A DNA stretch of 64,000 nucleotides from Kiloniella litopenaei. GTDB lineage: Bacteria; Pseudomonadota; Alphaproteobacteria; Kiloniellales; Kiloniellaceae. Shown in pieces: positions 58,545-63,741 of the stretch (position 1 is the first letter of the stretch; every line of letters begins with the position of its first letter). The stretch spans positions 124,001-188,000 of the forward strand of contig NZ_LANI01000002.1 in assembly GCF_000982415.1 (NCBI RefSeq). The letters run 5' to 3'. Both the position numbers and the translations under genes were made by a program. The notes beneath the pieces are model-generated. The model had not been told where the DNA came from, searched no databases, and worked only from the letters and a program-made list of their open reading frames with translations.

Positions 58545-58558
58545 TTGATCCAAATCAA
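58545..58558 (+). promoter_or_regulatory. perfect FNR/ANR box upstream of the Crp/Fnr regulator gene
   Basis: TTGAT-CCAA-ATCAA, the exact consensus for FNR-type regulators. It is about 110 bp upstream of the ATG at 58668, in a position to act as a class II activator site (-41.5) for a start near 58593. Suggests oxygen control of the downstream regulator. Confidence 0.8.
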
Positions 58559-58667
58559 GTTCGAACAAAACAAAATAAGGTAGCTTGTTAAAAATCAGGG
58601 CTAAATTATGCCCTGTAACAAACGATATTCAGTGCCAGAATATATCCGAAAAAGGAGAACGATCGGC

Positions 58668-59362
58668 ATGTCGCAACATACGTTTACATCAAAAGAGAAC
58701 CAGTTTCACTCTCCTTTTCTGGAATTGGCCGCAGAAAAAAAAAAGTTCTCTTACCGCTTAGCCGTATAGAAACCTTCCCCCCGGGGGCCGCGATTGTAAC
58801 GTTTGGCGAAAAGGCCGAAAACTTTTATGTTATTGAAGACGGATATGTCCGGCTTGTGCTGAATTCCACCTGTGGCGGAAAAAAATCAACTATTGATGTG
58901 CTCGGCCCTGGCAGTGCTTTTGGCGAAGAATCAGTTACAAAATCAGCGTTGAACAATTTCACCTGTATCGCACTCGACGAGGTCGAAACACGTGTTATTC
59001 CCGGCGACGTTCTCAGGCGAATTTTACTCGAAGATCCGGTTCTTCTTTTTCGTATGATGGGTAGTATATCCCTTAACATGCATTCTTTGATGACTCAGAT
59101 TGCCGATCTGAAGATGCGTTCAACAGCAGAACGGTTAAGCATGTTCTTGCTGGGACTTTCGGGAAAAGATACAGGTGACGACATAATAAGACTTCCCTAT
59201 GACAAACGCGTTATTGCTGATAAACTCGGTATGTCACCGGAAACCCTGTCTCGCACTTTTGCAAAGTTAAAAAAAATAGGCGTTAAGACACAACCAGGTA
59301 ACAAGGTTATGATATCAGATATCGAAACACTTGCAGATTATTGCGGCTATTCTTTTGTCTGA
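58668..59362 (+). CDS. Crp/Fnr-family regulator (NnrR/DNR-like), split by a frameshift
   Basis: From ATG 58668 (aaggag upstream) the frame reads MSQHTFTSKENQFHSPFLEL, then AAEKKK, then hits a stop at 58767 after 33 codons. The rest lies in the -1 frame: PLSRIETFPPGAAIV (cNMP-like domain), GEKAENFYVIEDGYVRLVL and the HTH RVIADKLGMSPETLSRTFAKLKKIGV. A -1 shift at A AAA AAG (58739-58745) inside a run of ten A yields 231 residues, the normal family length. The recognition helix has the FNR E-x-x-S-R residues, so it should bind TTGAT/TTGAC sites. No N-terminal Cys cluster, so probably a nitric-oxide-responsive regulator. Frameshift may be real or a sequencing error. Confidence 0.8.
58735..58744 (+). 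promoter_or_regulatory. run of ten A, with -1 slippery heptamer A AAA AAG at its end
   Basis: In the frame of the ATG at 58668 the codons are GAA AAA AAA AAG, so the last seven bases (58739-58745) fit the X XXY YYZ rule exactly and are the best-known bacterial -1 frameshift sequence. A stretch of C and G follows about 30 bases downstream. Confidence 0.6.
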
Positions 59363-59424: not shown

Positions 59425-60156
59425 ATGAAACACTTTCCAATCGGGGATACCGAGCTTCAAACCCTGAATAACGTCGCGATTTTCTCTCAGCTGCCCCCAG
59501 CGCTGTTACAGGGGCTGTTTGAAAATGCCTCTGGCACTTTCTACGAAAGCCAAACTGACCTTTTTATGGCTGGGGACCCGGCCGACGGATTTTATATCCT
59601 TTTGTCCGGCGAAGTTCATCTGACAATTCTGACTGCAGATGGTGCACAAAGCCTTGTACGAATTGTTGAACCCGGCGAAAGCTTTGCCGAAGCTGCGATG
59701 CTTGGCCTTGGAGAGTTCCCGATCAATGGGACTGCCATGTCAAAATCTGCCATCGTCAAGGTCTCCAAATCCGCATTCGAGAAAAAAATTTCCAGTGATC
59801 CCGAAGCGTCTTTGCATCTGTTAAGCGCCCTGATTAAGCGACAACAATTTCTGATCAGCGAAATAAAAATACTCAAAAGCCTTTCCCCCTGTCAGCGGGT
59901 TGCATCGAAACTGTTGTCCCTGTACGAAAGCCAGCAATGGAAAGGGTCAGGCAGCTTGCCACGATGCAAGCAAACCATGGCCAGTAACGTCGGGATAGAT
60001 CCCGCAAGTTTTTCACGGGTTCTACGGCGGCTGGAAGACGCAGGAATTGTTTGTGAGGGACAAGAGGTCATCATCACCGACCCCGAAAAACTACGCCAAT
60101 ACTGTGCCGGATTTGGCTATGTGTTTGATGACAACAAGCTTTTGATGTCCGCTTAA
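59425..60156 (+). CDS. Crp/Fnr-family transcriptional regulator
   Basis: 243 residues from the ATG with agagg 8 bp upstream. Effector domain about 15-140 (NNVAIFSQLPPALLQGLFENA, AGDPADGFYILLSGEVHLTIL, FAEAAMLG), long dimer helix, HTH about 180-225 (KQTMASNVGIDPASFSRVLRRLEDAGIV). At the first base-contact position it has Ala (A-S-F-S-R) where FNR has Glu, so its DNA target should differ. No FNR-type iron-sulfur cysteines in the N-terminus. Lies 62 bp after the frameshifted regulator and 18 bp before the DUF2249-like gene. Confidence 0.9.
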   Translation: MKHFPIGDTELQTLNNVAIFSQLPPALLQGLFENASGTFYESQTDLFMAGDPADGFYILLSGEVHLTILTADGAQSLVRIVEPGESFAEAAMLGLGEFPINGTAMSKSAIVKVSKSAFEKKISSDPEASLHLLSALIKRQQFLISEIKILKSLSPCQRVASKLLSLYESQQWKGSGSLPRCKQTMASNVGIDPASFSRVLRRLEDAGIVCEGQEVIITDPEKLRQYCAGFGYVFDDNKLLMSA

Positions 60157-60174: not shown

Positions 60175-60717
60175 ATGAATAACGAAATACCTTTGAATGA
60201 TGAAGACGAAAACTGTCACGTTCTCAGGGTCGAAAACTTGATCGCAGAGGGCCAGATACCAGTTGACGTCGTCACCCACATTCTTTTTGAAACAGACAAC
60301 AAAGCATGGGTCGCCCTGCATTCAAATTTTGATCCAATACCCTTGCGGTTAAAGCTGACCAAACTAGGATGCATTATCAACAAACAAGATACCACTGATG
60401 GATGGTTATTCCATATCCACCGCGATGTCACCTTAGCTGAAAACAAAAAGCCCGTGCCATCTGCCAAGGCATCTTTTCGATTTCAAGACGGTATCATAAC
60501 CATTGATGTCAGGTCTTTTGATTACCCCAATGATTTACTGGAAGTTTTACGGTTTATGGACACGTCCCTAGATAGCGATTGTTTCAGCGTCGAGATAAAA
60601 CGTTTTACACATAAATTCCAGGAAGTACTGGCACAACGCGGATGGAGCTGCGTTTCAAAATCAAGTCATTGCGATGAACGCGGCGACTTTTGGGTCTTGG
60701 TACTCGAAGAAAAATAG
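60175..60717 (+). CDS. tandem DUF2249/TusA-like domain protein
   Basis: 180 residues. Two similar halves: HILFETDNKAWVALHSNFDPIPLRLKLTKLG (about 35-65) and ITIDVRSFDYPNDLLEVLRFMD...KFQEVLAQRGW (about 105-165). Both show the alternating strand-helix pattern and the D-P-x-P-L-R and D-x-R motifs of DUF2249, a TusA-like fold found near denitrification genes. No conserved Cys at the TusA sulfur position was clear. In line with the Crp/Fnr gene (18-bp gap). Function unknown; a role in nitrite or NO metabolism is inferred from context. Confidence 0.6.
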   Translation: MNNEIPLNDEDENCHVLRVENLIAEGQIPVDVVTHILFETDNKAWVALHSNFDPIPLRLKLTKLGCIINKQDTTDGWLFHIHRDVTLAENKKPVPSAKASFRFQDGIITIDVRSFDYPNDLLEVLRFMDTSLDSDCFSVEIKRFTHKFQEVLAQRGWSCVSKSSHCDERGDFWVLVLEEK

Positions 60718-61613: not shown

Positions 61614-62828
61614 CTATACAGTTTCACCGCCCTTATTGATTTGCTTCATCAAATCATCGTTCCATTCGCCCTCTACAACCATATGGGCAACGGCACCAAG
61701 TTCAGTTGCTTCAATCAGGTTGTGATTGACATAGGCATAAACGCCTGGCTGTTCGAACTCATAATGAAACACCCCGGCAGATCCACCACGGATGATCGCG
61801 GTTTCATGGCCACGTCCAGGCACATCATCAAATGACCCAGCTTCCCAGGAATAGTTCCAATGCCCCCCGATTAAATGCGGACGGCAGTCTCTGTTTGCCT
61901 GGGAATGAACAAAGAGAACCTTTTCACCGACTTTGGCCGTCATCGCGCCCTCGCCTGTCAATGCGCCGACCCTGCCGTTAAAGACCTCGTGTGTGGGGAT
62001 CAGGCCACGGGCAAGTTCCATGACTTCAGAGAAATCTTCACCAGCTTCGGTAAACTTCATATAGTTACCGTTTTCATCTTTTGGCACATAGAAATCCTGT
62101 TCCCCGATGTAATACATCTTGTCATAGGTAATCGGATTGCCGCGACCATCGGTTAGTCCGTCACGTGGTAAAACAACAACCGCGCCATTCATTCCCTTGA
62201 TCACGTGGTACGGGATCATGGATCCACCCGGTGCACAGTGATAAACAAAAGCACCCGGTTTTGTTGCTTTCCAACGCAAGACAGCGGTCTCGCCCGGTAA
62301 TACATGTGTCAGACCACCACCGCCGAGCGCACCTGTTGCTGAATGGAAATCAACATTATGCTCCATTGCATTGGTCTCGGGATTTTCCATTGTGACTTCG
62401 ACATAATCCCCTTCGTGAACAACAATAAGCGGTCCGGGGACACTACCGTTAAAGGTCAACGCAATTGTCTCGGCCTCGTCATCAAGCTTCCAAGGCATTT
62501 CTTCGACAGTTAAAGTAACTTCAACCACCTTGGGGCCGCCTTTGGCAACCGGATCGTGCTCTGGCGCAAAGGGGGGAGCGACCATTTTCTGTTTCACACG
62601 AGGCAACTTCGCAATTTCTGCTTCGCTTAGGGATGGGAAAGCTTTTTTACCTGTATGAGTAGCAGTGCTCGCAACCTGCTCATGTTTCAATTCCGGTTGT
62701 GTACCAGTCGCAGAAGCGTTGGCTTGGCCAGCGAGTGTGATCGCGCCCAAGGCTGCACCCGTTGATGCCAACGTTGTTCCGCGTAAAAAGCTGCGACGAT
62801 CCATTGTTCTATCGTTATTGTTTTCCAT
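61614..62828 (-). CDS. nirK: copper-containing nitrite reductase
   Basis: 404 residues. Tat signal DRRSFLRG with hydrophobic stretch to QANA (about 40). Type 1 copper ligands: His in AMEHNVDFH, Cys and His in [14 protein letters not shown], Met in GMNG; type 2 copper His in DFHSATG, YHC and the NHNLIEA block, catalytic His in RPHLIGGHW. Reduces nitrite to NO in the periplasm. Ribosome site aaggag 9 bp before ATG. Divergent from norCB, followed by nirV. All key residues are present. Confidence 0.97.
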
Positions 62829-63285: not shown

Positions 63286-63741
63286 ATGAATGAGCGCTTA
63301 TCAATCAGCGCCGCCCGAAATATCTTCTACGGAGGGACTATCTTCTTTGCCGTGATCTTTATAGGTCTCGTCATTGATACTGTTTACTACGCAACTGATG
63401 CAGAGACATCAAATGCGGCAGAAATCAACGAACAAGTCGCCCTCGGTAAGGAAGTATGGGAACGGCATTCCTGTATTAACTGTCACAGTCTTCTTGGCGA
63501 AGGCGCATACTTTGCACCGGAACTCGGAAATGTTTGGGCCCGCCGCGGAGGCGAAGAAGATCCCGAAGGTGCCGCCGATTACATCAAAGAATGGATGAAG
63601 GCACAGCCAACTGGCATCGAGGGCCGTCGCCAGATGCCAAACTTTAATCTTAATGAAGAAGAGTTGGACGCACTGGTCGAATTCTTCAGGTGGACCAACG
63701 GGATCGATACCCAGGACTGGCCACCAAATGAAGAAGGGTGA
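63286..63741 (+). CDS. norC: nitric oxide reductase subunit C (cytochrome c)
   Basis: 151 residues. N-terminal anchor helix about 12-35, then a periplasmic cytochrome c with C63-I-N-C66-H67 and an axial Met in RRQMPNFN, ending NGIDTQDWPPN. It passes electrons to NorB. Ribosome site ttgggag before ATG. Overlaps no gene; norB begins 17 bp after its stop. Confidence 0.96.
   Translation: MNERLSISAARNIFYGGTIFFAVIFIGLVIDTVYYATDAETSNAAEINEQVALGKEVWERHSCINCHSLLGEGAYFAPELGNVWARRGGEEDPEGAADYIKEWMKAQPTGIEGRRQMPNFNLNEEELDALVEFFRWTNGIDTQDWPPNEEG

Follow-up and report, generated by a model that had tools for sequence, protein, structure and literature searches.

A Crp/Fnr-type regulator gene located near the copper nitrite reductase gene nirK in Kiloniella litopenaei is divided between two reading frames at a run of exactly ten adenines, and this break appears to be a maintained recoding site, transcriptional or ribosomal in kind (probability about 0.84). 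This reading is derived from the run, its phase and a following stop codon being common to six of nine Kiloniella genomes, from low dN/dS ratios at high synonymous divergence, and from the rarity of such runs. Slippage of RNA polymerase on the A10 run is probably the main step, since the downstream bases fold no better than shuffled ones here whereas the dnaX genes of the same genus carry a strong signal.

Structure of the split gene

The window (the whole stretch of DNA that was analysed, 64,000 nucleotides) contains the gene on its plus strand. The zero frame (58668..58769) begins at an ATG preceded at 11–15 bases by a Shine-Dalgarno-like AGGAG (58653..58657), which is kept in the five genomes that have the same start, and it ends after 33 codons at a TAG (58767-58769). 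The A run (58735..58744) consists of exactly ten adenines followed by G 58745, so that the zero-frame codons across it are GAA AAA AAA AAG, and it includes a heptamer A AAA AAG (58739..58745) whose phase would allow ribosomes to slip into the -1 frame. The -1 frame (58736..59362) is open for 208 codons from 58736, with its stop at 59362, and encodes the body of the regulator, comprising a cNMP-binding domain (PF00027, cNMP_binding, E 3.4e-15) and a helix-turn-helix (PF13545, HTH_Crp_2, E 3.3e-13), both above the Pfam cut-off. The N-terminus of the full regulator corresponds to the first 23 zero-frame codons. The early zero-frame stop, the Crp/Fnr remainder in the -1 frame and the ten-A junction with an in-phase heptamer had all been described in the original prediction, and each is confirmed; its description of a perfect Crp/Fnr protein holds for the -1 piece but not for the start codon or residues 1–23, which lie in the zero frame.

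The 33-residue zero-frame product has no Pfam match. The -1 piece matches 12 NCBIfam Crp/Fnr subfamilies, none at its curated cut-off, the best being FtrB (NF006901) with 115.4 bits against a cut-off of 211; the protein of an unbroken relative (G006) likewise stays under the FtrB cut-off, with 118.9 bits. By sequence, the nearest solved chains are 3h3z and 3fx3 (named cyclic nucleotide-binding protein); DNR (3dkw) ranks below them.

Conservation of the break in Kiloniella

Nine Kiloniella genomes were compared, one per species and including that of K. litopenaei (G000), and the regulator gene was found in all of them, although in one genome that is 77% complete (G004) it is spread over two contig ends. 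A run of ten A in the same phase is present in six: K. litopenaei, K. majae (G003), G004, Kiloniella sp. EL199 (G005), an uncultured Kiloniella (G007) and K. spongiae (G008). The remaining three (G001, G002 and G006) have eight A's followed by GAA within one unbroken frame. Relatives with an uninterrupted frame, named in the original prediction as a refuting result, do occur (three of nine, with A8), but the other six have the break in common; that three close relatives manage without the A10 device counts against the slippage reading. In all six broken genomes the zero-frame TAG occurs at the same place (+31), and the shifted frame is open over its full length in five and over the 191 available codons in G004.

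In a regulator tree built without the three run residues (KKK/KKE), the broken six and the intact three are separated by one split with a support of 100/98, for which a single origin of the break followed by long retention would be the simplest reading. A tree of the neighboring second regulator did not resolve the order of G004 and G006, and a search for rpoB gave no match in G006. Outside the genus, 15 of 52 genomes of the order have a match at E 1e-25 or better; since these homologues share at most 37% identity and their frames are open, they cannot date the break. Homopolymer runs are generally mutable and a free A10 would be expected to vary, so that an A10 kept at one out-of-frame length in six diverged species is not what is expected of a freely changing run.

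Runs of this length are rare. The K. litopenaei genome (4,312,119 bases, 4.31 Mb) has three runs of at least ten A, and the nine genomes together have 16, six of them at the split gene, which holds the sole such run of G004, G005 and G007. The other ten are found in ten different contexts, and no 12-base flanks recur in another genome. Three of these genus runs (L124, L130 and L143, belonging to G001, G006 and G002, respectively) are A10 runs in frame within open frames of 309–407 codons, which suggests that Kiloniella assemblies read A10 correctly; if A10 slips in the genus, the products of these three genes should be partly frameshifted. All 40 runs of at least nine A in the K. litopenaei genome were also tested, stop to stop, for a split-frame arrangement (a start-less frame that stays open for 80 or more codons beyond the run, beside a started frame ending within 90 bases), and three passed. 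The split gene did so with 205 codons past the run. The other two are A9 runs (L083 and L088) whose start-less frames, on the T strand, extend for about 80 codons each, and here the appearance of a split frame is probably due to chance. The A strand of L083 also has a pair of frames that overlap, each 152 codons long from stop to stop, the first of which resembles a protein ending there.

Selection on the two pieces

Purifying selection acts on both parts of the split gene. Among the five closest broken genomes (ten pairs), the dN/dS of the -1 frame is 0.023–0.089 at dS 0.99–2.18; between G004 and these five, synonymous sites are beyond correction (pS 0.75–0.88) and dN is 0.12–0.14. In the five closest genomes, the changes within the 23 codons that precede the run follow the zero frame (pN 0.018–0.120, pS 0.20–0.56), and the zero-frame N-terminus ends in SPFLEL(A/T)AE, the same stretch that precedes KKE in the three unbroken relatives. 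The two observations together indicate that both pieces are coding, and for one protein.

Synonymous conservation is highest next to the run. In the nine codons after it (58745-58771) it reaches 0.867 in the five closest species compared to 0.556 gene-wide (resampling p 0.00075 in 20,000 draws, for a stretch picked after looking). It then falls gradually to 0.70 and 0.665 over the next 36 codons and to about 0.5 in the rest of the gene, and the 23 codons before the run, at 0.756, are also above that rest. At the same distance the second regulator gene shows 0.583 (6 codons), below the 0.867 of the split gene, and the conservation of the nine codons is not shared by G004. These nine codons are nearly frozen synonymously in five species, and no structure that was found accounts for them.

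Ribosomal frameshifting compared with dnaX

The dnaX genes of the genus offer a yardstick for programmed -1 ribosomal frameshifting, in which two lysyl-tRNAs slip back one base at A AAA AAG. They were found in eight of the nine genomes (L146-L153; in K. litopenaei on contig C23, 296248-297333, minus strand), G004 giving no dnaX above the cut-off. In all eight, the heptamer A AAA AAG (A6) is in phase and preceded by T, with GGGGGA upstream, a 7-codon -1 tail and a stop, and it is accompanied by a hairpin with a folding energy between -21.6 and -27.9 kcal/mol (z from -2.3 to -3.1). Judged by its sequence, the Kiloniella dnaX signal resembles a textbook case of -1 ribosomal frameshifting, and the genus appears to use this heptamer.

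The split regulator gene has the same heptamer in the correct phase in all six broken genomes; additionally, tRNA-Lys(UUU) is the only lysine tRNA found (in an incomplete tRNA list made with a search pattern from general knowledge), and the synonymous constraint 3' of the run is something that homopolymer slippage alone does not demand. On the other hand, the 61 bases downstream fold no better than shuffled sequences in any of the six (z = 1.62, 0.50, 1.29, -0.03, 0.52 and -0.04, calculated by the folding tool, whereas the dnaX values come from our own shuffler), in a search that covered pseudoknot-free folding of local 61-base stretches. RNAalifold proposed 8 pairs, none with a double-sided change. 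The 40 bases upstream share, by eye, no purine-rich or Shine-Dalgarno-like element beyond the GA of the Glu codon, and the run contains four more A's than the heptamer requires. The dnaX-type frameshifting raised in the original prediction is therefore possible as far as the in-phase heptamer goes, but it is not the best reading since no dnaX-style stimulators were seen in the 40 bases upstream or the 61 bases downstream, and we consider it rather unlikely as the main step. Genes known for transcriptional slippage have at the junction a homopolymer of at least about nine A or T, which the regulator gene has in six of nine genomes (A10), and a shifted frame that is selected and conserved, as is the case here.

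Other explanations for the break

A direct initiation in the product frame would make frameshifting unnecessary, and it could draw on product-frame starts upstream of the run in two genomes (ATG at -63, GTG at -54 and ATG at -36 in G004; ATG at -129 and -111 in G007) and on the position of the Pfam domain, whose match to the -1 piece starts at residue 12. However, no product-frame ATG, GTG or TTG lies upstream of the run in the other four (G000, G003, G005 and G008), three of which (G003, G005 and G008) have a product-frame stop at -15, and none lies between the run and +120 in any of the six. The conserved part is moreover the zero-frame N-terminus, contrary to an internal start, which lacks a suitably placed start codon in four of six and is very improbable. 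The proposal that the full-length regulator depends on frameshifting appears to be upheld by the shared A10 break, the selection on both frames and the start codons lacking in those four genomes. A decaying pseudogene retained by common descent only would agree with the early stop, which is typical of decay, and with the intact gene in three relatives, but the shifted frame is open and constrained to the low dN/dS given above, making decay highly improbable.

Two explanations concern the run itself. Long A runs mutate readily and can switch genes, so that replication slippage might toggle A10 (off) and in-frame lengths (on) within a population. Such phase variation, also suggested in the original prediction, was not borne out: exactly ten A are present in all six broken copies, one genome per species, with no in-frame length among them, and it is unlikely, indeed improbable, given this single run length. 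A homopolymer sequencing error of one base, the alternative kept in reserve by the same prediction, is common with some technologies; here six genomes, including four that are separate named records, agree in run length, and other A10 runs of the genus (L124, L130 and L143) are read in frame within long open frames, which leaves such an error almost no probability.

Genetic neighborhood and upstream site

Upstream of the regulator gene, a perfect palindrome TTGATCCAAATCAA (58545..58558, plus strand; TTGAT-N4-ATCAA), which we take to be an FNR/NNR-type site, starts 123 bases before the ATG. It is the only TTGAT-N4-ATCAA in the window (1 found against 0.22 expected; present in 19 of 100 shuffles) and occurs in identical form in five of the nine genomes, where it lies between -175 and -193 relative to the run. 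G004 has a less exact counterpart at -252, and the three intact genomes have none upstream of the gene. The recognition helix of the regulator reads ETLSR, and as this presumably resembles the FNR motif, the regulator may possibly control its own gene through the candidate site.

A second Crp/Fnr-type regulator gene, recognized by domain search (59425..60156, plus strand), adjoins the split gene in every one of the nine genomes (in G004 it sits beside the end of the split gene on another contig), and the two are possibly co-transcribed. The third gene of the cluster (60175..60717, plus strand) encodes a 180-aa protein of unknown family with no Pfam match; each of the eight relatives has it after the two regulator genes, and it evolves fast, with 38–68% identity. 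It is followed by a gene for an FGE-sulfatase-domain protein and then by nirK (61614..62828, minus strand; TIGR02376, E 8.9e-140). The stretch 63286-63741 presumably encodes NorC, and it reached no NCBIfam cut-off.

Proposed mechanism of slippage

Under polymerase slippage, the gene would be transcribed, probably from the FNR/NNR-type site, and RNA polymerase would slip over the ten A's, some mRNA gaining one A (or losing two). On slipped mRNA, ribosomes starting at ATG 58668 would cross the run, continue in the -1 frame and so complete the Crp/Fnr regulator, which would have about 231 residues. Translation of unslipped mRNA would end at TAG 58767 after 33 codons, leaving a short leader, and this stop is perhaps polar on the next regulator gene. 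The outcome would be a low, possibly fixed, share of full-length regulator. The transcriptional nature of the step, the slip fraction, the polarity and any regulation are all inferred. It is a speculative and rather doubtful extension that the slip fraction acts as a sensor, varying with growth state, such as the nucleotide pools, the speed of transcription, or low oxygen or NO. It would then set the dose of the regulator and, by way of polarity, also the dose of the second one, so as to form a post-initiation dial on denitrification.

Comparison with known systems

To our knowledge, few conserved, chromosomal and non-mobile genes depend on a poly-A slip, and regulators are fewer still. One regulator for comparison is MxiE, presumably a protein of the AraC family whose gene slips at a T run. 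Shigella mxiE encodes a transcription activator made by transcriptional slippage (PMC1088944; PMC5009743), and it resembles the Kiloniella gene in being a regulator gene in two overlapping frames whose longer product is slippage-dependent. For mxiE, the gene directly downstream is also reported to be affected, comparable to the polarity proposed here for the second regulator. Unlike the Kiloniella gene, which encodes a Crp/Fnr protein beside nirK in a marine alphaproteobacterium, mxiE is plasmid-borne and belongs to type III secretion.

The tssM1 gene of Citrobacter rodentium has an A11 run with 20–25% slippage and no Shine-Dalgarno-like element or structure (PMC4256274). It shares with the regulator gene this lack of nearby elements, a poly-A shortly before the zero-frame stop (28 bases in tssM1 and 22 in the regulator) and a longer product reached by an extra A. 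Both tssM1 products are needed, unlike the situation here, where the short product is a 33-residue leader without a Pfam match. With E. coli-type dnaX, the regulator gene has in common the in-phase A AAA AAG, but dnaX, that of Kiloniella included, combines a strong hairpin with a purine-rich element upstream, neither found at the regulator, and the shift yields a shorter product in dnaX and a longer one in the regulator. Elsewhere, dnaX genes with ten A's are attributed to transcriptional realignment (PMC3711429), and runs of about nine A or T are stated to be selected against in many genomes (PMC1088944). Among the literature matches listed, which cover few subscription journals, no title or beginning of an abstract names a Crp/Fnr gene expressed by slippage, and no title among those listed for Kiloniella concerns the regulator locus.

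Concluding remarks

The break is kept in six species despite their high synonymous divergence, whereas the gene is unbroken in three relatives, and the broken six and intact three thus form a natural with/without comparison for the effect of the slip. Likewise, the regulator and dnaX in the same genomes are a natural pair for separating transcriptional from ribosomal slippage. Split genes of this kind may be annotated as pseudogenes. For Kiloniella itself, dependence on slippage would cap the amount of regulator that is made.
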